Made by a program: the position numbers and the translations under genes. DNA of 51,809 bases from an uncultured Clostridium sp. (GTDB lineage: Bacteria; Bacillota; Clostridia; Lachnospirales; Lachnospiraceae), in contig CANRZB010000024.1 of assembly GCA_947644195.1 (NCBI GenBank), forward strand, positions 1-51,809, written 5' to 3'. Positions 25,834-50,798 of this stretch are shown here, piece after piece (the first letter of the stretch is position 1; every line of letters begins with the position of its first letter). The notes under the pieces are model-generated. The model searched no databases, was not told the DNA's origin, and saw only the letters and a list, made by a program, of their open reading frames with translations.

Positions 25834-26889
25834 TTAAGAATCCATGACAAAATCACCGACATTTTCCATGGTTATTTTTGAGTAGGGAAGATAAATATAT
25901 TGTCTATTTTTGAATTTGATATCCTTCCATCCTTGATTTAATGTAACGGCAATCGCTAACTTTGCGATCATTCTCCCCTGTCCCTCTTTGTCATTATAAA
26001 CCGTTCCAGATAATTTGGAATCAGCCACTGCCTGCAACCCCACATCGGTTCCATCAATTCCAAAAAATATGGGCAAATCCGCCTCTGTAAAATTTAATTT
26101 TTGATAAGCGTCCATCGCCCCAAGCGCCATATCATCATTGTTCGCCAACACTAATTCTATTTCATTTTGATGCTCACTAATCATTTGCAACATCCGGTTC
26201 TGTGCCTGCGACCGATTCCAATTTGCAATCCCATAACTCAGTTTTTCCAGTTCGATCCCATGATTCCGAAGCGTATCCACCGCATTTTCTGTCCGAAGTA
26301 TCACATCCTGGTGTCCGGCTTCCCCTTCCAATACCACATATTGAATTTTACCATCTTTATTTCGGTCAATCCGCGGATCTCCCTGTATGGCATCTACTGC
26401 CAGTTCCCCCTGCATCACACCAGATTGTTTTGCGTCCGCACCTACATAATACAAGCCATCCCACTGCATCATGTCCTCTGCAACAGGTTCTCTATTAAAG
26501 AAAATAATCGGTACTTCATTCTTCCGGGCAAGTTCAATAATCTCTGACGGATCTGTGCGGTCTACCAAATTGACACATAATACATTGCATCCTGCATCAA
26601 TAAATTCCTGAACCTGATCATCCTGTGTACGCTGCGAACCTGCTGCATCCCGGATCGTTACCGTTACATCAATCCCTTCCTCCTTTAACTGTTCGAACTG
26701 TTTCTGCATAGAAGTCATTAATTGGGCCAAGAAAGTATCACTCTGATTATAAATAGTCACTCCCACATAAATCCGATCTGCTGTTTCTTTCTGTTGTGTT
26801 CCACAGGCAGTTAGAATTACCATGCCCAGGCTGAGTATGATTCCTGCAATCCCTATGTTTTTTTTCATCCATACACTCATTCTGCGCAT
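25834..26889 (-). CDS. Galactose/glucose-binding lipoprotein of canonical MglB topology, sensor-linked
   Basis: This 351-residue lipoprotein (lipobox LTAC, Cys29) has canonical galactose-binding-protein order: VTIYNQSDTFL (Asp and Phe ligands), VNLVDRT, FFNREP (Asn), and the calcium loop DRNKDGKIQ. GHQDVILRT (His, Asp, Arg), a Trp in NWNRS, ANNDDMA, FGIDGTD and GTVYNDKE (Asn) follow. All sugar contacts of E. coli MglB appear to be kept. It is the last gene of the YesN-YesM unit, 8 bases after another binding protein, with no permease or ATPase beside it. It may deliver sugar to the sensor complex or to the Mgl importer at 31564-36191. ATG 26880 is an alternative start. Confidence 0.88.
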   Translation of the reverse strand: MRRMSVWMKKNIGIAGIILSLGMVILTACGTQQKETADRIYVGVTIYNQSDTFLAQLMTSMQKQFEQLKEEGIDVTVTIRDAAGSQRTQDDQVQEFIDAGCNVLCVNLVDRTDPSEIIELARKNEVPIIFFNREPVAEDMMQWDGLYYVGADAKQSGVMQGELAVDAIQGDPRIDRNKDGKIQYVVLEGEAGHQDVILRTENAVDTLRNHGIELEKLSYGIANWNRSQAQNRMLQMISEHQNEIELVLANNDDMALGAMDAYQKLNFTEADLPIFFGIDGTDVGLQAVADSKLSGTVYNDKEGQGRMIAKLAIAVTLNQGWKDIKFKNRQYIYLPYSKITMENVGDFVMDS

Positions 26890-26897
26890 CCCCTTTC

Positions 26898-27872
26898 CTA
26901 CTGGCTCATCGTAAACAAAATTTCCTGATTCTCTTTTGAGAATAACTCATCCCTGCGAATGACAGAATAGGACAACGTATGATCTTTCATATTCCGATAG
27001 AAATGTGTCAGACATTCCGAAACTTCTGTCAGAGCCTGATATCCTTCCTTAAATTTATCCGGCACTACCAGACATTCTACCATGCCAGTATCCAGATAAT
27101 ACATAGCTTCCGTAGAATGAGCAATCCCATACACTAATGCCCCATGAAAATTGTTTCCAGAGACACATTCTCCGGCAACTGTCAAAGCGGAATTATCCAA
27201 GGCCAACACCAAATCTACCTTGGGCTGTTGATCCAAATTATGTTCTTCCGTCTCCCCATCCTGGACAGCGACCGACCAAAGAATCCTGGCATCCGTTTCT
27301 TTCAGAACTTCTTCCACTCCCTGTCTCCGTTCAAGAATTGCTTGGGAATCGGCATACGAACTCACCATTCCAATGGTCTTTCCCTCGATCTTGCCATTAT
27401 AGTCCGCCAACATTTCTTCCGCCAAGGTTTTCCCCATGGCATAATGATCTGGTTCCGTAACCGGGAGTTTAGAGCTTTCCCTGCTCTTAGAGGCAATCTG
27501 CCCGATGAGCATAATGGGCGTCCTGCCTCCGACACTTTTTATCTTTGCTTCGGAATCCTTGCCTGGAATCGGTTGAACCATCACTGCATCTGCACCTCGG
27601 CTGATTTCCTCCTCAATGGCATTGATTTCTTCTTCCACCGTTTGCATTTTACCCGTACTAGCGATTACCAGCTCTACTTCCTGATCCTTTGCGGCCATTT
27701 TCAGCCCATACCGGAAAGAGGACCATTGCATTGCATCTGAATCCTGCAGGATAACCGATATCTTATGACGAACCTTTCCCCTCTGCTCCTGAACCATAAT
27801 CAATGCCAAAAGTACGACAAAAAATGCTAAGGAAGCTTCCAGTCTGAGAAACATTTTTTTGCTATTCTTCAT
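26898..27872 (-). CDS. Membrane-anchored periplasmic-binding-type sugar sensor protein
   Basis: This 324-residue protein has an uncleaved-looking N-terminal helix (about residues 11-27, no lipobox) and then a type I periplasmic-binding fold (KISVILQDSD, GADAVMVQPIP, TPIMLIGQ, IGMVSSYADSQA, DLVLALDNSALT). Its ATG overlaps the kinase stop (ATGA), so the two are made together. Membrane-anchored binding proteins next to sensor kinases act as the sugar-sensing part of three-component systems such as the XylFII-LytS xylose sensor. A role as co-receptor of the kinase at 27869 is therefore likely. The ligand cannot be read from the sequence; it lacks the MglB contact set. Confidence 0.8.
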   Translation of the reverse strand: MKNSKKMFLRLEASLAFFVVLLALIMVQEQRGKVRHKISVILQDSDAMQWSSFRYGLKMAAKDQEVELVIASTGKMQTVEEEINAIEEEISRGADAVMVQPIPGKDSEAKIKSVGGRTPIMLIGQIASKSRESSKLPVTEPDHYAMGKTLAEEMLADYNGKIEGKTIGMVSSYADSQAILERRQGVEEVLKETDARILWSVAVQDGETEEHNLDQQPKVDLVLALDNSALTVAGECVSGNNFHGALVYGIAHSTEAMYYLDTGMVECLVVPDKFKEGYQALTEVSECLTHFYRNMKDHTLSYSVIRRDELFSKENQEILFTMSQ

Positions 27873-29725
27873 ATCAATTCATCCCACTTTTCCTTCTTAC
27901 TATCTTCTCCAGCCAAGATATGGCCTTTTTCCAAAACCAACCTGTTTTCCTCTGTGTAAGACACTGCCGGAAACAAAATAGAAACCGTGGTTCCCTCATC
28001 CGGTTCACTTTCCACCTGCAGGCCATACTCTTTTCCAAAAAGAATCTGAATTCGGTGATTCACATTTACCAATCCTACGCCGGAACCATGCTTATGCACT
28101 CTCTTGCTATCTGTCAACGACAGACGGACCTCTTCTTCCGTCATGCCGATCCCGTTATCCGAAACAGAAAGTAGAATCATCCCGTCTTTTAACTTTCCCG
28201 TCACTTTGATCTCCCCGCAATCATCCATGCAATTCACTCCATAGTTAATGGCGTTCTCCAAAATTGGCTGTAAGATTAATTTAACACTGCAATAATCCCC
28301 CAAGCCTTCTTCGATATCAAATTGTATCGAGAATATATTCTTATAACGTATCTTCTGAATATTCATATAACTCTTTGCATGCTGCAGTTCATCCTGAAGA
28401 CGGATCACGGTCTGCCCTTTTGACAAACTGATGCGAAAAAGTTTGGCAAGCTCTGAGATCATAAATACTGCATCGTCATTGCGTTCCCCTTCCACCATCC
28501 AGGTAATCGAATCCAAAGCATTATATAAAAAATGAGGGTTAATCTGACTCTGTAATGCATCCAGCTCACTTTTCCTCCGCTCATTCTGTTCCAGGACAAT
28601 TTCATGCATCAGCGTATCAATCTGTTCATAAGATCGCTGGATGGAATATCCCAAATGCCTGATTTCCTGCGATCCCCCAATATAGATTTCCGGTTTCTCC
28701 CCCGCCTCATACTTGCGGACAGAAGCGTCTAACTTCAAAATAGGACGAGAAATTCTGGTAGAAACAACCCGGTTAATCACAGCTAGCATCATCGCCATCA
28801 AAAGCATCAGCATCATAATAAAATAACGAATACTGAACAGGCCGTGCGTAAAAGTAGAATAAGGAATGACCCCGACTAACTTCCACCCCGTATAACTCAC
28901 CGTATTAACAATCAGCTTACGTTGTTCCCCGGCAAACTTTTCCTCATAAACGCCATCTTTATATTTGGATACTTTCCCATTATTTTCCGCAGAAATCCCC
29001 TTACTAATCTGCAACTGTTTCGTATGATAAATAATTTCCCCATTCCCATCACAAAGATAATAGTACTGTCCATTATAAGTCTTATTGATTTGTTGCATCA
29101 TCCGCGAGATCGCAGAATAATCCATATCAACGAGCAGAACTCCCGAACAGGGAACTCCCTGATCCACCAATTCCACAGCACGGCTTAATGATATCACCCA
29201 ATAATAACGCCTGGTAGCATCATCAAACAGATTCTGGATATGAGGGGTGGAAAAATGCATATTTTCCATTTCTCCGATGGCCTGTTTATACCAATCCTGA
29301 CGCGTAACATCGGGATCTTCTTTCTGCAATGCAACCGGCTCTGCTGCCATCAGGCTGCCATAATTATTATAAACGGCTATACTGCGCAAATTACTTTTAT
29401 TCGCCTCATAAATCAGATTCATTTCCTGTGGAATCACTTTCTCCCTGCTGGAAAAATCATTTTCTTTAATCACATTATAATAAACTGCATCCGATACCTG
29501 CCTCATATCAACCAGATAATCTTCCAAGTTTTCTCTGGTCTGTTCCATCAGTTTCTGTGTACTCTGAACCACTTCCTGCCGGGTCAGAGCGGAAAATTTG
29601 AAATACATGACTACTCCCAGGATAAGCATAATGGAAATAGAAATCACAGAAAAAGCAAGCATAATTGTTGACTGCAATCCCCTTGGCTGCAGTTTCTCCC
29701 TATGTCTCTGATATTTTATTTTCAC
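27869..29725 (-). CDS. YesM-type sensor histidine kinase
   Basis: This protein of about 618 residues has one membrane helix near the N-terminus, a large Cache-like extracytoplasmic domain (about 240 residues), a second helix and a HAMP-like linker. The His_kinase domain follows with the phosphoacceptor in QINPHFLYNALDS, then an ATPase domain with PILENAINYG, SDNGIGM and GSGVGLVNV. I take GTG 29725, which has GGAG upstream and overlaps the response regulator stop by 26 bases. An ATG at 29785 inside the regulator gene is the alternative. Its signal input probably involves the binding protein encoded immediately downstream. Confidence 0.88.
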   Translation of the reverse strand: MKIKYQRHREKLQPRGLQSTIMLAFSVISISIMLILGVVMYFKFSALTRQEVVQSTQKLMEQTRENLEDYLVDMRQVSDAVYYNVIKENDFSSREKVIPQEMNLIYEANKSNLRSIAVYNNYGSLMAAEPVALQKEDPDVTRQDWYKQAIGEMENMHFSTPHIQNLFDDATRRYYWVISLSRAVELVDQGVPCSGVLLVDMDYSAISRMMQQINKTYNGQYYYLCDGNGEIIYHTKQLQISKGISAENNGKVSKYKDGVYEEKFAGEQRKLIVNTVSYTGWKLVGVIPYSTFTHGLFSIRYFIMMLMLLMAMMLAVINRVVSTRISRPILKLDASVRKYEAGEKPEIYIGGSQEIRHLGYSIQRSYEQIDTLMHEIVLEQNERRKSELDALQSQINPHFLYNALDSITWMVEGERNDDAVFMISELAKLFRISLSKGQTVIRLQDELQHAKSYMNIQKIRYKNIFSIQFDIEEGLGDYCSVKLILQPILENAINYGVNCMDDCGEIKVTGKLKDGMILLSVSDNGIGMTEEEVRLSLTDSKRVHKHGSGVGLVNVNHRIQILFGKEYGLQVESEPDEGTTVSILFPAVSYTEENRLVLEKGHILAGEDSKKEKWDELI

Positions 29726-31325
29726 CCTCCAGATGCTCCCTTCTATACTTGGAAGGAGACACGCCAAATCTCCTTTTAAATACATAACTGAAATAATTAG
29801 GATCTGTATATCCTACATTCTGTGCTATAACATAACTTTTTTCATTCGTTTCTAATAACTTCCGAGATGCCTGCTCCATTCGATAATCTGTTAGATAATG
29901 AATAAATGATTTTCCTGTCTCTTTCTTAAATATGCTGGAAAAATAGGAATTCGACAGTCCCAACACTTCACAGATATGGTCCAGGGAAAGATCTTCCTCT
30001 CCATAGTTATGCTGCACATATGCCTCTGCTCTGGATATCAAAGATTTGGTGGAACGATTGCGTACATGAATCAGTTGATCCTGGAATAGATAACTACAGC
30101 CAATAAGCCAATCGCGCAATGCCAAAGGTTCCATATCCAATAGACTGCTGTACAAATCCCGGATATCCCCTCCAAAATCATCGAATAAAATCTCATGATT
30201 GACAGCGAACCGATACAACGTACTAACTAATTCCATTAAATCCACATGATGCTGCGACAGGGAATGGCGCGGAGATCCCATCTGATCCAGATACTGAACT
30301 GCCGCCTTCTCCACATCTTGTTTTGAGCCAAACTGTATCATTTTTAACAGATCCAACAATACTGCATCGCTGACAGGAACGGATCGGTCACTCTCCTGTG
30401 GAACAATTTCCTGGATATTAATTGCCCTGGAAACACCATAAATTACCCGATAAGACACAGCCTCCCTCGCATCATGATAAGATTCCGAAAGACTGAGCAG
30501 TCCGTCACAGAGTGTCCCAATTCCTATGGTAACCACCGCCCCCAAAATACTTTTGGCATATTTGCAAAAACGGTCGCAATCATCCGTCAAATCCGAAATT
30601 TCATGTTCCATATTTAACTGCGCAATCAAAATAGTATTTCCCAAATAAGAGAAACATTTTGCATGCCACTTTTCCGTCAGACGCTCTTCCACCTGTTTAT
30701 GCACCGAAGTAGCTAACAGCAAAGGGTTCATATTTCCAGGCATCTGCGCTGTCGATGTATGGACTACCAAACAGCAATAAAAGGGACCCGGAAGAACTAA
30801 TTGATAATCCGAAAGATATTGGGAAATATCCTTCTCATTGACCCTGCCTTCCAACAAAGAAATATAAAAGTTCGTCTGTAATAGTGGTAAGGACTCCAGA
30901 TAATATTTCTGCAATGTCTCCACATTACGTTTCTCACTAATTTCCTGATCCAACTTTCTCTTTAACTGCACAAAAACATTGGTCAATTCTGTGGAATTGA
31001 CTGGTTTTAATATATAGTCCTCCACCTCCAGATGAATCGCACTTTTGGCATACTCAAACTCATCAAAGCCCGTAAAAAACAAGATCTTTGCCGCAGGATA
31101 TTCCCGCCTTATCCTACGGGACAATTCCACTCCATCCATAAATGGCATTTTGATATCCGTCATAACTACATCCGGCTGTATTTCTTCCATCATTTCCAGT
31201 GCCTTAACACCGTTATTTGCATAACCCACCACAGAAAAGCCAATTTCCTCCCAATTGATCTTTTTCATGATAACACGTATTACTTCTTCTTCATCATCTA
31301 CCAGAAAGACTGAATATTGATCCAT
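29700..31325 (-). CDS. YesN-type response regulator with AraC DNA-binding domain
   Basis: This 541-residue regulator has an N-terminal receiver (FLVDDEEEVI; Asp near 55 in MTDIKMPFMDG; Lys in ILKPVNS) and a long central helical region. The C-terminal AraC/XylS domain (about the last 100 residues) has two helix-turn-helix units (LSLDHICEVLGLSNSYFS and VIAQNVGYTDPNYFSYVF). It is the first gene of the sensor unit and has a near-consensus promoter at 31431-31459. ATG 31325 follows GGAG; a 15-residue extension has no support. Its likely targets are the Mgl operon promoter upstream at about 36330 and sugar-use genes. Confidence 0.93.
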   Translation of the reverse strand: MDQYSVFLVDDEEEVIRVIMKKINWEEIGFSVVGYANNGVKALEMMEEIQPDVVMTDIKMPFMDGVELSRRIRREYPAAKILFFTGFDEFEYAKSAIHLEVEDYILKPVNSTELTNVFVQLKRKLDQEISEKRNVETLQKYYLESLPLLQTNFYISLLEGRVNEKDISQYLSDYQLVLPGPFYCCLVVHTSTAQMPGNMNPLLLATSVHKQVEERLTEKWHAKCFSYLGNTILIAQLNMEHEISDLTDDCDRFCKYAKSILGAVVTIGIGTLCDGLLSLSESYHDAREAVSYRVIYGVSRAINIQEIVPQESDRSVPVSDAVLLDLLKMIQFGSKQDVEKAAVQYLDQMGSPRHSLSQHHVDLMELVSTLYRFAVNHEILFDDFGGDIRDLYSSLLDMEPLALRDWLIGCSYLFQDQLIHVRNRSTKSLISRAEAYVQHNYGEEDLSLDHICEVLGLSNSYFSSIFKKETGKSFIHYLTDYRMEQASRKLLETNEKSYVIAQNVGYTDPNYFSYVFKRRFGVSPSKYRREHLEGENKISET

Positions 31326-31430
31326 AGTAATCTCCATAATACTATTGTTTTGGCATGACAGCAAAAACAACTTTCCCTGATCCCGAACATCGGATCCTAA
31401 TTATTTTACAAGGTGCCGTTACTTGCCTAC

Positions 31431-31459
31431 ATTATAGCAAAGCACCCATGGTATGTAAA
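31431..31459 (-). promoter_or_regulatory. Promoter of the YesN/YesM sensor operon
   Basis: Minus strand TTTACA (31454-31459), 17-base spacer, TATAAT (31431-31436). It lies about 105 bases upstream of ATG 31325 and just after the terminator of the Mgl operon, so the sensor operon is transcribed independently of the importer. Confidence 0.8.
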
Positions 31460-31563: not shown

Positions 31564-33225
31564 TTATTTTTTCTGTACATATTTCAAACAATCCAAAGTT
31601 ACTGCAACCAGAATAATGATACCGGAAAACACAAACTGCAGATTGGTATCAATTCCTAGGATTGTCAAAGAATACGTCAGGGCAGTAAAGATGAAAACAC
31701 CCACTACCACTCCAGAGATCTTACCAATACCACCTGTAAAAGAGACTCCACCAACCACACAGGCAGCAATGGCATCCATTTCCCAGCCCTGTCCATAGGC
31801 GGCGGATCCAGAGCCTACCATTCTTGCACATTCCAGCCAGGAACCAAATCCATATAGTATCCCTGCCATGATGAAGGCACCTACCGTCACACCAAATACA
31901 GATATTCCTGATACTGCTGCCGCTTCTGGATTTCCTCCCACTGCGTATAAATTTTTACCAAAAGTGGTTTTATTCCAGATAAACCAAACAATAAATATGG
32001 CAGCGACTGCCCAAAGGATAATCGTCGGGAAACCATTTATTTTTGGAATAATCATGTTGGGAATCGTTGGCTCAATCGCCCCAAACGATACCCCTTTTGT
32101 AGCATAAGTGACTAAACCAAAAATCACAAGCATATTTGCCATCGTTGAAATAAAGGGGTGCATTTTGAATTTTGCTGTGAAGAGACCTGCAATGGTGGTA
32201 AAAAATGTGCACAACAGAACACACATAACTAATGCGAATACCACCCTGGTTCCAATCGGCATTTTTGTAAAATCAAAGATATGCCCAAAAACAGAACCCG
32301 TATTTATCCCCTGATGCATAATAATTGTTGCTGTCGTCATTCCCATACCAACCATACGCCCAATCGAGAGATCTGTCCCTGTGAGCAGGATCAATCCCGC
32401 AACCCCCAGTGCCAGAAACATCCTTGGAGATGCCTGCTGCAATATATTTAATACATTGTTATAGGTTAATAATGGGGAATTCTTAACCATCGGTGTGATA
32501 ATACACAACATAATAAAAATCAGTATAATCGCTATATATAATCCATTTTGTAACAGAAAAGCCCTACGATTAAAGGTATATTTATAATTTTCCCATTTCT
32601 GCGCCTTGGATTCCAGAAACGTAAACTTTGACATGCGTAGTAAGTCAATCAGATGATACTGATAGGTATATGCCGCATGCCTTCTATCTTTCATCCGCTG
32701 AAAATCTTTTTCCCGTTTCCTCTTGGCATCAAATAATCGGTTCTTGTAGACATACCGTTCATCTTTTATTTCCTGGTGATCTGACAGTTTTGCCATGGTC
32801 TCCTGATGTTCTCTCTTGATCCTGGCAACGGTCTGACGGTATTTTTCCTTTGCCTCTGCCTTTTCCAGAACACAGCTCTCTTTTACTTTTTGATAGTAAT
32901 CCCGGTCAAAATGAGCTCCTATAAAATTCTCTGCATCTGCAATCAATTTTGCAACCGTTTCTTTGTTCTTTTCCTCAATCTCCTTTGCCTTTTCCAACTG
33001 AACCCGATCCTCTGCAATCATTGCTGCCTTTTCTTGTTTTGTGAGCACACGGTCTTTCTTGATCCTGTCAATATGATTTTGTAATGTCAGAACCCGATCC
33101 GTCCCCTCGGCTCTCAAACGATCAATGTCTGCTTGAATCTTGCTGACATAATCCTCCATCGGCTGACGCAGCTTGAGTTCCTGTTCTGCTGTAAGAATCT
33201 TGCTATTTTGATTTGCCATATCCAT
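31564..33225 (-). CDS. mglC: Galactose/glucose ABC permease MglC with long N-terminal coiled-coil extension
   Basis: This 553-residue protein contains a normal MglC/RbsC-type permease from about residue 226 (first helix) to the end, with GLILLTGTDLSIGRMVG, AVGGNPEAAAVSGI and VVGGVSFTGGIGKISG. MglC is usually about 335 residues. Here roughly 220 charged residues (Lys, Glu, Arg, Gln) precede the first helix and have the heptad-like spacing of a coiled coil, e.g. VQLEKAKEIEEKNKET. With the normal topology this part would be in the cytoplasm, near the MglA ATPase. ATG 33225 follows GGGAG and lies 12 bases after the mglA stop, so the extension is not a start-codon error within this gene pair. Confidence 0.93.
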   Translation of the reverse strand: MDMANQNSKILTAEQELKLRQPMEDYVSKIQADIDRLRAEGTDRVLTLQNHIDRIKKDRVLTKQEKAAMIAEDRVQLEKAKEIEEKNKETVAKLIADAENFIGAHFDRDYYQKVKESCVLEKAEAKEKYRQTVARIKREHQETMAKLSDHQEIKDERYVYKNRLFDAKRKREKDFQRMKDRRHAAYTYQYHLIDLLRMSKFTFLESKAQKWENYKYTFNRRAFLLQNGLYIAIILIFIMLCIITPMVKNSPLLTYNNVLNILQQASPRMFLALGVAGLILLTGTDLSIGRMVGMGMTTATIIMHQGINTGSVFGHIFDFTKMPIGTRVVFALVMCVLLCTFFTTIAGLFTAKFKMHPFISTMANMLVIFGLVTYATKGVSFGAIEPTIPNMIIPKINGFPTIILWAVAAIFIVWFIWNKTTFGKNLYAVGGNPEAAAVSGISVFGVTVGAFIMAGILYGFGSWLECARMVGSGSAAYGQGWEMDAIAACVVGGVSFTGGIGKISGVVVGVFIFTALTYSLTILGIDTNLQFVFSGIIILVAVTLDCLKYVQKK

Positions 33226-33237
33226 TCATCTCCCTTA

Positions 33238-34746
33238 TTATAGGTATTTTGCGCTAAGCCTCAATAATTCTTCCTGATTTGTCTCACTGGTCTTGACAAT
33301 GCCAGAAAGATGTCCGTTTGACATTACTCCAATACGATTTGTAATCCCCAGAATTTCCGGCATCTCAGAAGATACTACGATGATTGTTTTTCCTTGTTTC
33401 GCCATATCTATAATCAGCTCATAGATTTCATACTTGGCCCCCACATCAATTCCCCGAGTCGGTTCATCCATCATGAAAATCTGTGGGCTCCGTTCCAGCC
33501 ATTTTCCCAAGATCACTTTTTGCTGATTGCCACCGGAAAGACTGGAAATCATATCTTCCGGCCCCATACATTTTGTGTGCATTATTTTTATTTCCTTGGC
33601 GGTAGCCTTGATCATTTTTGAATCAGACAAAGCCACACCGGATTTATATTGACTTAGATTGGCAATGGTCGTATTAAATGTGAGATCCCCCTTGAGAAAC
33701 AGTCCATTGGCTTTCCGTTCCTCAGTAATCATGGCAAAACCATGATCCATGGCATCTCTTGCACTGCTGAAATTCATCAGCCGTCCGTTATAATAAACTC
33801 TTCCTGCTGCCCGTGTCCGTACACCAAAAATCGTCTCCAGCAATTCCGTGCGTCCTGCACCGACCAGCCCATACAACCCAAAGATTTCTCCCTCTCTGAC
33901 GTCAAAAGTGATATCCTGTAAATGAGGTTCAAATTTGGTGGACAAATGCTGCACGGATAAGACAACTTCTTTCGGCTGATTATTTACCGGTGGAAAACGG
34001 TTTTCGAGGGAACGTCCCACCATTGCTGCAATCAACTCATTCATATCGGTTTCTTTACTGCTCTTTGTCATGACCAGATTACCATCCCGAAGGACGGAAA
34101 CCTCATCACAAATTTCAAATATTTCATCCATTTTGTGGGAAATATAGACCAGGGCAATTCCCTCCGCTTTTAACATCCGCATCATTTCAAAAAGCTTTTC
34201 TACTTCCTGCACCGTCAGAGAAGAGGTAGGTTCATCCAAAACAATGACTTTGGAATGATAAGAAATTGCTTTGGCAATTTCGCACATCTGTCTCTGGGAT
34301 ACCGACATATTCCGCATTGGCTGTGCCAGATTTACAGTCATTCCCAGTTTTCTGAAGAGTTCTGAAGCTTCTTTTTTCATTCTTCCTTCATTCACTACAC
34401 CCATGGAATTCACCGGATAACGTCCCAGAAATAAATTGTCAATCACATTTCTCTCCAGGCATTGATTTAATTCCTGATGAACCATTGCAATACCGTTTTC
34501 CAAGGCATCTTTCGGCCCGGAAAAGTTCACTTCCCTGCCATCTAATAAAATCCTGCCCTCATCTTTCTGATACGTACCAAATAGGCATTTCATCATGGTA
34601 GATTTCCCGGCACCATTTTCCCCCATCAACCCCATTACTGTACCAGCTTTTACGTCCAAGTTAATATGGTCCAGAACCCGGTTTCTTCCAAAGGATTTGC
34701 TCATACCTCGTATTGATAATACGGTATCTTTTTTTTCATCTGTCAT
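33238..34746 (-). CDS. mglA: Galactose/glucose ABC importer ATP-binding protein MglA
   Basis: This 502-residue protein carries two fused ABC domains. The first has Walker A GENGAGKSTMM, signature SVSQRQMCEIA and Walker B VLDEPTSSL. The second has a degenerate Walker A GLVGAGRTELL, signature LSGGNQQKVIL and MMDEPTRGID, the pattern usual in MglA/RbsA ATPases. It energises sugar import by the MglC permease. ATG 34746 has GGGGTG in front; a GTG three codons earlier is possible. A strong hairpin separates it from the binding-protein gene upstream. Confidence 0.96.
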   Translation of the reverse strand: MTDEKKDTVLSIRGMSKSFGRNRVLDHINLDVKAGTVMGLMGENGAGKSTMMKCLFGTYQKDEGRILLDGREVNFSGPKDALENGIAMVHQELNQCLERNVIDNLFLGRYPVNSMGVVNEGRMKKEASELFRKLGMTVNLAQPMRNMSVSQRQMCEIAKAISYHSKVIVLDEPTSSLTVQEVEKLFEMMRMLKAEGIALVYISHKMDEIFEICDEVSVLRDGNLVMTKSSKETDMNELIAAMVGRSLENRFPPVNNQPKEVVLSVQHLSTKFEPHLQDITFDVREGEIFGLYGLVGAGRTELLETIFGVRTRAAGRVYYNGRLMNFSSARDAMDHGFAMITEERKANGLFLKGDLTFNTTIANLSQYKSGVALSDSKMIKATAKEIKIMHTKCMGPEDMISSLSGGNQQKVILGKWLERSPQIFMMDEPTRGIDVGAKYEIYELIIDMAKQGKTIIVVSSEMPEILGITNRIGVMSNGHLSGIVKTSETNQEELLRLSAKYL

Positions 34747-34798
34747 AGTTTTCACCCCATATCCATTGAAGATCTGCTATTTATATTGTTTAGAAAAG

Positions 34799-34898: not shown

Positions 34899-36191
34899 TC
34901 ACTGACTCAGCAAAGCCGTATAAGAAGCTGCATTATCTGTCTTAACCATATTGATTGCAAATGCATCATACTGTCCTGGGTTTCCAAGACGGTTGGTAAT
35001 GTTAGATTCTGTCTGCCCATCACCGCCGATATAATCAATTTTCAGGTTCAAAAGATCATCGTATTTCTGAAGAAGCGGCTGATACGTAGAACTCAGAAAA
35101 TTATCAGAAGCATTGTAAATATTTAACCATACTTTCTTTTCTGCATGAGATCCCTGATCCAACTGCGAAGATACTGGTTCATATACCTTGGTAGAATCCG
35201 TAAAATCCTGGTAATTCTCTGAAGTGACGGCAACATTCAATGCATAGTAAGAGCGATCATCCTCCTTGTAGATATAGACATCCTCTGATAATACGTTGCC
35301 TGCCTCATCTTCTTTGCCAATACCGGTATCTACATCGACACCATCTAACGCATTACGTAGAACACGAAGTGTCAAATACGCCTGTACGTCTGCATGCTGG
35401 CTGATCGTACCACCATATCCCTCTGCAATCGCTGCTACCGCATCATTATTCGCATCATATCCAAAGGTAGGAACTTTTTGATCCTTAGACCATGCATTAA
35501 ACATGGACATTCCCATTCCATCATTATTGGAAGCCACTACATCAATTTCCTTGCCAAAGGAAGAAGACCATGTTCCAATGGCATTTCCCGCAGTCGCTGC
35601 ATCCCATGTTGCACCGGAAGAATTCTTCATTTCCTGGGAGGCCAGCTCTCGAACGGTATACTTTTTCCCTCCAATCTCCAACGTTCCATCCTGAACTGCA
35701 GATGCCGATCCATCCACATTGGTTCCGATTGGTTCACTATTGATTTCTCCATCCTTCTCGACACCGGTTCCCAGCGCCTTACGAACACCTCTGGTACGTG
35801 CTATGGAATCGTTGTGTCCAATATCACCAATGGCAAGTACATAGCCGATTACTCCATCGCCGTTCCGATCAATTTTATCAATATTTTTCTCAATATAATC
35901 CTTAATCATGGTTCCCTGGAGCTCCGCCCCCTGATTTGCATCAAACCCCACATAATAGGTATCTTTATTATAGGTTAATGCAGTTTTATCCAACGCCCCT
36001 GTGGAGCTATTTGATGGCTGACGGTTAAACCATACTAACGGTTTATCCTTATTTGCCACGCCTGCTGTTTCTCCCTTACCAGACGATGAACCGGAACCTC
36101 CGTTTGAAGAGCCTCCCGATCCGGATCCACATGCCGTTAAGGAAAGACCAAGAACTAGTGCCATTGTCAATGAAAGTATTTTTTTCTTCAT
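34899..36191 (-). CDS. mglB: Circularly permuted galactose/glucose-binding lipoprotein of the Mgl importer
   Basis: This 430-residue lipoprotein has lipobox LTAC (Cys21) and a Gly/Ser-rich linker. The mature part starts in the middle of the MglB fold: FNRQP (55-59), YYVG, calcium-loop-like DRNGDG (108-113), GHNDSIART (His126, Asp128, Arg132), TWDAAT (Trp196), SNNDGM (223-224) and FGYDAN (Asp246). After about residue 350 come VWLNIYNASDNFL (Asp363, Phe365) and FAINMVKTDN, which in E. coli MglB and in the homologue at 25834-26889 are the first strands. The protein stops where the join to FNRQP would be. Contact residues are kept, except that the Asn of GTVxN is Gln265. It is first in the operon with mglA and mglC and has AAGGGG before ATG 36191. 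It is about 80 residues longer than the usual binding protein, partly from inserts near 155-190 and 295-345. Confidence 0.9.
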   Translation of the reverse strand: MKKKILSLTMALVLGLSLTACGSGSGGSSNGGSGSSSGKGETAGVANKDKPLVWFNRQPSNSSTGALDKTALTYNKDTYYVGFDANQGAELQGTMIKDYIEKNIDKIDRNGDGVIGYVLAIGDIGHNDSIARTRGVRKALGTGVEKDGEINSEPIGTNVDGSASAVQDGTLEIGGKKYTVRELASQEMKNSSGATWDAATAGNAIGTWSSSFGKEIDVVASNNDGMGMSMFNAWSKDQKVPTFGYDANNDAVAAIAEGYGGTISQHADVQAYLTLRVLRNALDGVDVDTGIGKEDEAGNVLSEDVYIYKEDDRSYYALNVAVTSENYQDFTDSTKVYEPVSSQLDQGSHAEKKVWLNIYNASDNFLSSTYQPLLQKYDDLLNLKIDYIGGDGQTESNITNRLGNPGQYDAFAINMVKTDNAASYTALLSQ

Positions 36192-38867: not shown

Positions 38868-39632
38868 CTATCCCAATAATTTAAACATACCATCATGTTT
38901 ATGCAAATTGATAAACACATCCTGCATTTCCTGTTTTGCCTTAATGTCACTGGAAATATGAATACACTCGTTCAATTTTCTAGATAACTCCAAATGCCCC
39001 TCCGCAATAATGTTAATATTAGGAACAATTTCATTCTCAAGAGCTAAATGAATTTCATCCTTGAGACAAGTCGTATCTTCTCTCAAAGAGGTAACCTCTA
39101 CCTTCATACCGTCCATATCTTCTCGCAAAGAAGTAACCTCTACCTTCATACCGTCCATATCTTCTCGCAAAGAAGTAACCTCTACCTTCATACCGTCCAT
39201 ATCTTCCCGCAAAGAACTGATCTCTTCCTTCATAACGCTCATATCTTCTCGCAAAGACGAGATATCCTTTTTCACTCCGTCCACATCTTCTCGCAGCGAC
39301 GAGATATCCTCTTTCATTCCTTGCATTTCCTGCCTCAAAGAAGTATTCATATTCTCCATGTCTTCCCGCAAGGACGAGATATCCTCTTTCATTCCCTGCA
39401 TTTCCTGCCTCAGGGAAGTGTCCATATTCTCCATGTCTTCTCGCAGCGATGAGATATCCTCTTTCATCCCCTGCATTTCCTGCCTCAGGGAAGTGTCCAT
39501 ATTCTCCATGTTTTCTCGCAGGGACGAGATATCTTCTTTCACTCCCTGCATTTCCTGCTTAAGCGCTACTACCTCTTGTTCCACTGAAGTAGATTTCTGT
39601 AATAATAGATCTAATTTTTCGCTATCTGTCAT
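38868..39632 (-). CDS. Repetitive coiled-coil protein
   Basis: This 254-residue, highly charged protein has no signal peptide or membrane segment. After a short head ([13 protein letters not shown]) it has about four 25-residue repeats built on [25 protein letters not shown], then mixed units, then three near-identical 14-residue units [15 protein letters not shown] non-repetitive helical tail ends GMFKLLG. Fourteen residues are two heptads, and 25 fits two heptads plus one 11-residue unit, so a long rod-like oligomer is expected. No catalytic motif is present. It is co-transcribed with rubrerythrin; function unknown. ATG 39632 is preferred to an upstream ATG at 39653 because GGGGG lies between them. 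Confidence 0.85.
39091..39216. repeat. Three 42-bp tandem repeats inside the coiled-coil gene
   Basis: Units start at 39091, 39133 and 39175 (GTAACCTCTACCTTCATACC...) and are almost identical at DNA level, each encoding 14 residues. The low divergence indicates recent duplication or ongoing copy-number change that keeps the frame. Confidence 0.9.
39301..39555. repeat. 75-bp tandem repeats inside the coiled-coil gene
   Basis: Units start at 39301, 39376, 39451 and 39526 (GAGATATCCTCTTTCATTCC...); the last diverges before completion. Each encodes 25 residues. Confidence 0.9.
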
Positions 39633-39713
39633 AACAAAGTACCCCCGTTTCATTAAACATTTCCTATCGTTACTTTGGATGGCCCCTTGGTATTTTTTCT
39701 CCCACGTAGACTA

Positions 39714-48212: not shown

Positions 48213-50798
48213 TTAGTTTACCCCTTGAAAAGCTATATTCTGTAGCGTGAATGTAATCGAAATTTTCTTTGGATTCGGTATGCCAGAAAATGAAATGGCA
48301 TTATTATCATTTTCTACCTCTTCCACCACAGAACCATCCCAGGAATTTATCGGATCATTCGTATCAAAAATCCCTGAACTTTTTAGTGCTGATTTATAAT
48401 CATTATTCTTGATGGTCAGTTTTTGTCCATCCACCACAATTTCATCATAGCGGATATCACAGGCAGACAACGGACTGGTTGAAGCCTCTCCTGCTGTCAC
48501 CTCATGATCCTTAATATAAATCGCTGTGACCCGGTTCAAGCTTTCAATTCCTGCATCAACTGCTTTCTTCGATAAATCTTTTTCACAGTCAAACGTCAAA
48601 GTATACTGACCATCCTGATTAACAGTAATTACATCGGAAGATTCCTCATTCCCAAAATACTGCTTGCCGCTATCATTGTAATAGACATTGACAGCGAGAG
48701 AAATATCGGTCTTTACAGCCCCTTCGGAAACTTTCACTGGAATGACTTTGGTTTTACCGCCCGATGTTCCGACGGTAATACTGGTCTCACCAGCCCCTAC
48801 CGCCAAAACTTTACCAACCGGGGAAACCGTCACAACCGATTCATCCCCCGATTGATAGTAGATTGCTTCACTACAATCCGTCGGCGCTACCTCTGCCTCC
48901 AGCCATTCTACCGAATCCTGATATAATTCCAGGCTCTCTGTTTTAACCTGAAGTTCTTTACAAGGAACCTTCGCCTGGGCTGCTGTTACCGTAACCAGAA
49001 TAGAAACAGACTGCTCACTATTTTGGCTAAATAAGGTAACCGTTGTCGTACCGATTCCCTTTGGATGAATGGTTCCATAGGATACTGTAGCTACCGAGGG
49101 ATCTTCCGTCTTCCACAACAATACATCATTTGAATTGTCTGGTGCATACGTAGCATCCAGATGAATTTCTTCATCCATGGCAAGCGTTACCTGCTGAACA
49201 GGAAGCTCTAACGACGAAACCGGAGTTACTGCAGCGCCTTTTACCGCTGTCGTAGGATCTGTCTCCCCCGTCAACCCAAAGAATCCTCGCATCAAACTGT
49301 CAGTGACCACTTTATCAATCGGTTTTCCACTCTCCCGGTCAATAATTGTCAAACTATAATCTGCCGGCTCCTGCGTCCTGTCATACCAACCCATATCCCA
49401 ATAAACTCCGACCAGTTTGTATTTGCGGAACATGCGATTCATTGCTTCTAAATATAATGCCCTCTCCTCTGGATTATTCTTGTTAACACAGCCATACTCT
49501 CCCACTACCACCGGAATCCCCTTGGAGGTATAGGTATCATATAATGGCTTTAACTCTTTCTCGTTATTGGCAATCATTTTGGGATCACAGTTTACCTTAT
49601 GCATATTTTTTCCCAAGCAAAAATTATTCGGTGAATAATCATGAATGGAAACGATAAAACGATTGTCTACACTGTCCTTTGGCAGGGAAAATTGATTCTT
49701 TTCATTGCAGACAGAATCAATATAGTTATATTTTCCAGGAACCATTAGAAAACGCTGCGCATTATTGGAACCAGTTCCCCTTACCGTGTCTACAAAAATC
49801 TGGTTTAGTTTCATAATAACCGCATTTTCTTCCACGGTTGTCATATTTTCACCTTTTACCTCATTCATGGATTCCAGAATCAGGTGTTCATCATAATCCC
49901 GGAATGTGGTAGCAATATTTTTCCACACCCCTGCAAATTTTTCTTCCAAGGCTGCCTGATCGTCTGTAGCAATCCGAAGCCATCCCGTCTGCTCCGCTCC
50001 ATCATGATGAATGTTTACTATCGCATACATATCCTGGGAGATACAGTAATCCACAATATCCTGTACCCGGCTCATCCATTTTTCATTGATGGCATAATCA
50101 TTTTCATCATCAATCATCGTCCCCCAGGTAACCGGAATCCGTATCGTATTAAATCCCATATCATGAACCGACTTAATAAGAGCTTTGGTCGTCTTGTACG
50201 GCTGCCAGATGGTTTCTCCCGGAGTAAACCCCGTATGTCCATCCATCGTATTTCCCAAATTCCAGCCGGCTCCCATATCCTGTATCAGTTCATCGCCGCT
50301 CAGGACACGAAAAGCGGCTGGATCCACTTTCGTAGCCGTCGGTGCTGGCAATGAAGTATCTGCCGGACCCGTTGTATTCACTGGTACTGCTGTTGGACTT
50401 GTGTTGCCAGGCACTGCCGTCACTTTCGGTAATCCTGTAGATACTTTCTTGGAATTCACTTTTACGGCAACCACAAACTTTGTCGTCTTCTTTTTTCCTT
50501 TGGCCTTATATGTAATCTTACAGATTACTTTCGTCTTTCCTTTCTTTTTCGCTGTAATCATGCCTTTTTTGGTTACCTTGGCAATTTTTACATTCTTCGA
50601 TTTCCAGGAAATTTTCGCCTTTTTTGGAGCTTTCTTTACCTTTACTTTTTTGGATTCCCCGACGGATAACGTCACTTTTTTCGTACTTAATTTCGGTTTT
50701 TTCACAGCAGCCGACGAAAAGCTGGTCTGGGAAAATACAGTACTCAGAAGCAAAAGCATCGTTATCATACAGGAAATCACTCGTTTTCTGTTCTTCAT
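48213..50798 (-). CDS. Secreted multidomain GH5 endoglucanase-like enzyme
   Basis: This 861-residue protein has a signal peptide (1 to about 30). An unusually Lys-rich Big2-like domain (about 32-115) follows, then a Pro/Thr/Val linker (about 120-160). The GH5 catalytic domain (about 165-510) has acid/base Glu313 in SMNEVKG and nucleophile Glu434 in VVGEYG. Two Big2-like domains (about 545-720) and a C-terminal beta-rich domain (about 725-861) of unknown, possibly carbohydrate-binding type complete it. GH5 enzymes cut beta-1,4-glucans, mannans or xyloglucan; WNLGNTMDG and IHHDG fit the endoglucanase-like branches. There is no dockerin or sortase motif, so attachment may be through the basic N-terminal domain. 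It is divergent from an AraC regulator that probably controls it. Confidence 0.9.
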   Translation of the reverse strand: MKNRKRVISCMITMLLLLSTVFSQTSFSSAAVKKPKLSTKKVTLSVGESKKVKVKKAPKKAKISWKSKNVKIAKVTKKGMITAKKKGKTKVICKITYKAKGKKKTTKFVVAVKVNSKKVSTGLPKVTAVPGNTSPTAVPVNTTGPADTSLPAPTATKVDPAAFRVLSGDELIQDMGAGWNLGNTMDGHTGFTPGETIWQPYKTTKALIKSVHDMGFNTIRIPVTWGTMIDDENDYAINEKWMSRVQDIVDYCISQDMYAIVNIHHDGAEQTGWLRIATDDQAALEEKFAGVWKNIATTFRDYDEHLILESMNEVKGENMTTVEENAVIMKLNQIFVDTVRGTGSNNAQRFLMVPGKYNYIDSVCNEKNQFSLPKDSVDNRFIVSIHDYSPNNFCLGKNMHKVNCDPKMIANNEKELKPLYDTYTSKGIPVVVGEYGCVNKNNPEERALYLEAMNRMFRKYKLVGVYWDMGWYDRTQEPADYSLTIIDRESGKPIDKVVTDSLMRGFFGLTGETDPTTAVKGAAVTPVSSLELPVQQVTLAMDEEIHLDATYAPDNSNDVLLWKTEDPSVATVSYGTIHPKGIGTTTVTLFSQNSEQSVSILVTVTAAQAKVPCKELQVKTESLELYQDSVEWLEAEVAPTDCSEAIYYQSGDESVVTVSPVGKVLAVGAGETSITVGTSGGKTKVIPVKVSEGAVKTDISLAVNVYYNDSGKQYFGNEESSDVITVNQDGQYTLTFDCEKDLSKKAVDAGIESLNRVTAIYIKDHEVTAGEASTSPLSACDIRYDEIVVDGQKLTIKNNDYKSALKSSGIFDTNDPINSWDGSVVEEVENDNNAISFSGIPNPKKISITFTLQNIAFQGVN

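Follow-up and report, generated by a model that had tools for sequence, protein, structure and literature searches.

A permuted MglB-type lipoprotein of a probable MglBAC importer in Lachnospiraceae, with a permease extension and putative sensor genes found beside it

Within a stretch of 51,809 nucleotides from an uncultured Clostridium sp. of the family Lachnospiraceae (hereafter, the window), the gene permB encodes a predicted glucose/galactose-binding protein of the MglB type in which the order of the segments is rotated. With a probability of about 0.9, permB is the lipoprotein of an MglBAC importer with the topology named Type Ic/Cluster Bc, its neighbours most likely constitute a sensor unit, and the permease MglC carries an N-terminal extension that is inherited together with the permuted protein (Table 1). 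The importer is of a known kind; it is the partner features that were not found in print. Literature searches, with subscription journals mostly outside their scope, returned no paper linking MglB with Lachnospiraceae and none that reports either the MglC extension or the GGDEF-linked permuted paralogue described below. Acting for an ABC importer of the MglBAC type, the lipid-anchored permB would hold glucose/galactose between its two lobes, in the site used by E. coli MglB, and in its closed form would hand the sugar to MglC/MglA; both binding and delivery are suggested by the conserved residues and by a solved, glucose-binding relative.

Table 1. Coordinates of features of the permB region (window positions unless a locus is named)
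Feature	Position	Strand	Remarks
permB, permuted glucose/galactose-binding lipoprotein (MglB, TpMglB-2 type)	34899..36191	-	430 aa, ATG start
permB signal peptide and lipobox LTAC (C21), residues 1-21	36129..36191	-	from the translation
permB residues 49-330, counterpart of the last (C-terminal) two thirds of a linear MglB	35202..36047	-	rotated alignments
permB residues 331-350, linker from old C-terminus to old N-terminus	35142..35201	-	fourth-hinge region of TpMglB-2
permB residues 351-430, old N-terminal strands	34902..35141	-	with contacts D363, F365
permB-mglA intercistronic stem-loop	34799..34849	-	19 pairs (one G-U), 13-nt loop
mglA, sugar ABC ATPase	33238..34755	-	505 aa; best NCBIfam match MglA, 662.9 bits, below cut-off 828
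mglC, permease	31564..33225	-	553 aa; best NCBIfam match MglC, 270.8 bits (221-553), below cut-off 386
MglC N-terminal extension (about residues 1-210), long helices	32596..33225	-	without Pfam match
Promoter-like TTTACA-17-TATAAT before the response regulator	31431..31459	-	11/12, best of 34 sites in the region
Response regulator (receiver, GGDEF_2, AraC-type HTH)	29700..31370	-	Pfam
Histidine kinase (dCache_1, His_kinase, HATPase_c)	27869..29785	-	Pfam
PBP2, binding-protein-like, one N-terminal hydrophobic segment	26898..27872	-	between kinase and linear MglB
Linear (canonical-order) MglB-type lipoprotein, sensor slot	25834..26889	-	10/10 sugar contacts including N256
GGDEF, HD-domain and permuted lipoprotein gene set	L094 7639-11027		also L168, L169, L170, L171

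The topology of permB was published in 2016 and is thus not new. The structure of TpMglB-2 was solved, its permutation described and its binding of glucose shown by Brautigam et al. (2016; PMC4990184), the available text of which places permuted relatives in a 'Trep./Spir.' clade and a 'Gram Positive/Gut' clade, proposes the names Type Ic/Cluster Bc for the permuted topology, and notes that homologues of the permease Tp0686 are distributed similarly to the permuted binding proteins; that text mentions no Gram-positive species by name. In the structure (5JX2), the C-terminal strands are reported to occupy the places of the N-terminal strands of MglB, with 5-4-6-1-2-3 as the strand order of the N-lobe. 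The reason for such a permutation was also a question raised there, with tethering as the proposed answer. The original prediction allowed that the topology might not be unique, naming Tp0684 (MglB-2), and this proved correct; its accompanying statement that no report was known in this group of bacteria did not stand where Gram-positive bacteria of the gut are concerned, given the same topology in the 'Gram Positive/Gut' clade.

Comparison with solved structures by phmmer placed TpMglB-2 (5JX2) on top (E 1.7e-88, 300.8 bits), with permB residues 47-428 aligned to residues 19-385 of the chain as a single colinear stretch that takes in over 90% of mature permB; 6BGD and 6BGC followed, and the E. 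coli-type MglBs were matched in separate stretches only. The NCBIfam model of canonical MglB (NF011924), whose linear order is that of E. coli MglB and unlike that of permB, was likewise matched in two stretches, at 90.5 bits and below its cut-off of 420, while Pfam PF18610 covers residues 351-421, the displaced segment. With TpMglB-2 (Tp0684; 5JX2, 6BGC, 6BGD), permB shares 46% identity, the rotated order, a lipoprotein anchor, the sugar contacts, the calcium-loop residues and the linker; it differs in being longer near residues 145-170 and in the linker, and in having two-component genes and a linear paralogue nearby. An AlphaFold model of permB built with 22 close rows was of low confidence (mean pLDDT 56.4), and a Foldseek search with it put four TpMglB-2 chains on top at a query TM of only 0.29-0.38; it is the 46% identity to a solved structure that points to a type I fold. 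The permutation would keep the fold and move the start of the chain to the strand before FNRQP, so that the lipid tether, an N-terminal lipid predicted from the lipobox LTAC, would have moved too.

A rotation scan, in which mature permB was cut at every position and scored against linear MglBs with shuffled tails as control, gave the same picture. Against E. coli MglB, the score rose from 217 unrotated to 253 at best (cut at residue 350), and none of 500 shuffled tails reached 253, the highest stopping at 251. The margin was much wider with two linear clostridial MglBs, rising from 210 to 287 with L091 (best of 200 shuffled tails, 234) and from 219 to 297 with L093 (best of 200, 249), the best cuts for these two closest linear relatives falling at residues 331-357. 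The canonical copy in the window gave 170 and 210 (best of 200, 183) and the second linear copy of L091 gave 167 and 188 (best of 200, 186). As judged from the sequences, the rotation is real, the evidence being strong with the clostridial relatives as reference and thin with E. coli MglB alone. The segment order initially read from the letters was therefore borne out, as was the placing of the usual N-terminal strands at the C-terminus; the end of permB, AASYTALLSQ, meets NKDKPLVWFNRQP in the rotated alignment in the manner foreseen.

Brautigam et al. (2016), who found 13% identity to E. coli MglB, left open that the C-terminal segment of TpMglB-2 might be a piece of another gene that fills the same place, and the score of rotated permB against E. 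coli MglB, barely above that of the best shuffled tail, would agree with such an origin. Linear clostridial MglBs argue otherwise. Three of them matched PF18610, with E-values of 1.2e-5 to 2.0e-5 and below the curated cut-off, and permB aligned to these in two pieces of swapped order, with 28.8-30.4% identity over the body and, by BLAST, 31.5-32.9% identity (E 3e-5 to 4e-5) between its tail (residues 341/345-423) and their N-terminal parts. This resemblance of the displaced segment favours a true permutation and, with the wide margin over shuffled tails seen with L091, renders a foreign segment very improbable.

The sugar contacts of permB were mapped in two ways: one went by TpMglB-2 and used Table 2 of PMC4990184, the other was a direct rotated alignment to E. 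coli MglB. All ten of the positions originally proposed, namely D363, F365, N56, H126, D128, R132, W196, N223, D246 and Q265, the last in place of N256, were recovered by both. Eight of them, with the calcium-loop residues, lie in residues 49-330. The ten contacts were invariant in 100 of 100 permuted transporter-type rows, in which some genomes are counted twice, and the place of N256 was Gln in every one of these rows, as it is in TpMglB-2. At Asp363, permB has the residue of E. coli (D14), where TpMglB-2 has Asn311. Residues D108, N110, D112 and D217 of the calcium loop are those of TpMglB-2, and permB also resembles E. coli MglB in the calcium-loop positions D134, N136 and D138 as well as in the sugar contacts.

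A tblastn scan of genome_contigs (84,980 species; E up to 1e-3) returned 524 stretches with a relative, of which the best 80 were kept. All 80 were colinear with permB of the window. By their titles, these best 80 of the 524 come mostly from genera of Lachnospiraceae or from unclassified Clostridia/Eubacteriales, one (L014) being labelled Bacteroidales, and among them are Blautia, Roseburia, Dorea, Anaerobutyricum hallii and [Ruminococcus] torques. Tandem pairs of MglB genes do occur in several linear clusters, from which an assembly artefact could have produced a rotated order; the same order in all 80 of these further loci and in the solved treponemal protein refutes this, independent genomes having ruled it out. 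Above the cut-off, PF18610 was found in 28 of 250 genomes of the family, in 8 of 61 near relatives of the window's genome and in 4 of 295 genomes sampled from the order, where the three linear MglBs described above were the further matches below the cut-off. The published permuted subclass is extended by these proteins, and its being common in Lachnospiraceae would make its biochemistry accessible in harmless commensals.

The prediction of a complete Mgl importer was upheld, in that the genes beside permB match MglA and MglC best among the NCBIfam models, each under its equivalog cut-off; PF02653 is found on residues 258-541 of MglC. Among the best 80 of 524 loci, mglA directly follows permB in 79, and the remaining locus (L078) ends 71 bases past permB.

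In MglC, the first of the predicted membrane segments (221-253) is preceded by approximately 210 residues. The sequence of this extension was present in 71 of the 72 mglC frames that reach the start of the membrane core among the best 80 of 524 loci; the 72nd (L060) has it in the adjacent frame, and in L044 two frames share it. A profile of the extension gave 29 matches in 250 genomes of the family, including all 28 with PF18610 and hence permuted MglB. Two of the 28 (G508 and G548) were matched in part, at contig ends, and the 29th match, a weak one (716-residue frame, E 9.1e-4), fell in a genome without PF18610 (G425). In 398 genomes of the phylum there were two matches, both with PF18610. 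Such co-occurrence is expected of neighbouring genes by linkage, and the stronger point is the absence of the extension from eight linear-MglB clusters (L091-L093, L173-L177), where the mglC frames are too short to contain it (365-374 residues in L091-L093, L173, L175 and L176; 356 in L174 and 360 in L177). AlphaFold modeled MglC with confidence for the extension only, with helices at residues 63-146 and 150-200 and ten-residue means of 82-93 over residues 11-190, the membrane part being mostly below 50. The extension would thus be a helical region N-terminal of the membrane part that is inherited with the permuted binding protein. Its charge, taken with the usual topology of such permeases, makes it probably cytoplasmic, where as a guess it might scaffold MglA or contact a cytoplasmic regulator. 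In the available text of PMC4990184, the word 'coiled' is absent and 'extension' is used twice, each time of cloning. An extension of the permease that accompanies the permutation would offer a concrete partner for the puzzle raised there of why the binding protein is permuted.

Beyond mglC lie the response regulator, the kinase, PBP2 and the linear MglB, which would most likely form a sensor unit controlling uptake, with the linear MglB as its binding protein. Among the best 80 of 524 loci, 62 extend 2.5 kb or more past mglC; there, 48 of them had both a response regulator and a histidine kinase, three the regulator alone and 11 neither, which shows that the sensor is not a fixed part of the system. 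PBP2 and the linear MglB follow the kinase in the window, and PBP2 begins after the kinase in L063 and L122, most of the best 80 loci ending before the position of the linear MglB could show. Kinase, regulator and linear-MglB genes are found upstream of permB, in varying order, in L060, L079, L082, L088 and L090, as are the regulator, kinase and a weak PBP2 match in L065. The linear clusters L091-L093, L173, L175 and L176 have the order (RR)-HK-MglB-MglB-mglA-mglC with tandem linear copies, and in L174 it is a transport-type copy, not a sensor-type one, that follows the kinase and PBP2. For PBP2 of the window, three of the ten MglB contact positions could be aligned and none of those was conserved; its role may be that of a structural co-receptor.

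A tree of the shared body was made from 46 of 55 prepared rows, three linear and six permuted rows without the anchor pattern being left out. Within this sampled set, the permuted proteins formed one branch (support 100/100) and the sensor-slot linear copies another (99/98) that includes the copy of the window. The sensor-slot label of five rows out of 17 (L056, L135, L165, L167, L174) came from similarity, and that of five others (L140, L148, L150, L152, L164) only from their upstream place in a tandem pair. Seventeen of 18 transport-labelled rows grouped weakly with E. coli (88/53), and L158 stood beside the sensor group. An origin of permB by fusion of a tandem pair, in which the sensor-slot gene would have given the body and the transport-slot gene the tail, was considered and rejected, the permuted branch lying outside both groups in this tree; profile scores leaned toward the fusion (20.6 vs. 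14.7 bits for the tail of the window's protein and 98.9 vs. 89.2 for its body), with nine of 18 permuted rows scored and the others lacking the anchor pattern.

The linear copy matched canonical MglB structures over nearly its full length and TpMglB-2 only in pieces, so its earlier designation as an internal control holds in so far as it provides a fair linear comparison; it occupies the sensor slot, however, and is probably not a linear counterpart of the importer subunit. That it should instead be the main importer subunit, with permB serving another purpose, would be in keeping with its retention of all ten contacts, N256 included, but is improbable given that mglA follows permB so regularly and that the linear copy, placed past the kinase, clusters with other copies of the sensor slot. 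Gene order and the tree both indicate that it is probably the sensor partner of the kinase. A tested precedent is the CuaD/CuaS/CuaR system of Ruminiclostridium, where a second binding protein serves the sensor and is encoded next to the two-component system in control of a sugar importer (PMC10384115); that system concerns cellobiose, its description in the available text includes no permutation, and the parallel is with the linear copy, not with permB.

A second permuted paralogue was found in five of 79 genomes of one genus (G170 and four more), as the last gene of a set that begins with a GGDEF protein and continues with an HD-domain protein. The paralogue of G170 is 55.7% identical to permB of the window, and no mglA or mglC match was found in the 14 kb covered. 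The GGDEF protein keeps GGDEY, and the HD protein shows HHERIDGNGYY at the place of GYP in HD-GYP proteins. The equivalent of E. coli D154 is lost in all five paralogues (Ile in four, Ser in one) and the other nine contact positions are kept, which makes a changed ligand likely; the gene set suggests a sensor role in cyclic-di-GMP turnover. A further tree of 87 rows including the treponemal outgroup, with 12 permuted rows without the anchor pattern, duplicates and short rows dropped, gives no direction of recruitment, the branches from the GGDEF-linked paralogue to that outgroup being long. On a more speculative reading, which we hold to be somewhat unlikely, the permuted importer would be a distinct machine, with a moved tether and a cytoplasmic helical hairpin of about 210 residues on its permease, whose binding-protein fold was later recruited as a GGDEF/HD sugar sensor. 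If so, permB and the MglC extension would be inherited as a pair that linear MglBAC importers lack, and within one genus the permuted fold would have been reused as an extracytoplasmic sugar sensor for an HD-domain protein and a membrane-bound GGDEF enzyme, in cyclic-di-GMP turnover.

In the gaps between permB and mglA of the other loci, hairpins of at least 10 pairs were formed in 76 of the 79 that were folded. Perfect stems of at least 10 pairs, counted with G-U allowed and a loop of up to 10, occurred in 66 of 79 gaps compared to a mean of 4.5 in ten shuffles, and the stem motif GGGRGR...TTCTCCC occurred in 45 of 79. On the model of other binding-protein operons, the stem may keep permB mRNA above mglAC mRNA. 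Rfam at gathering thresholds found nothing in the window, and the promoter-like sites of the region numbered 34 against an expected 29.3 (sd 6.4), no clear excess over chance. Elsewhere in the window, positions 48213-50798 encode a protein of 861 aa with a GH5 cellulase, Big_2 and a hyaluronate-lyase-type beta domain, and positions 38868-39653 encode one of 261 aa, made of near-identical repeats of a 16-letter unit, that is probably a coiled coil.
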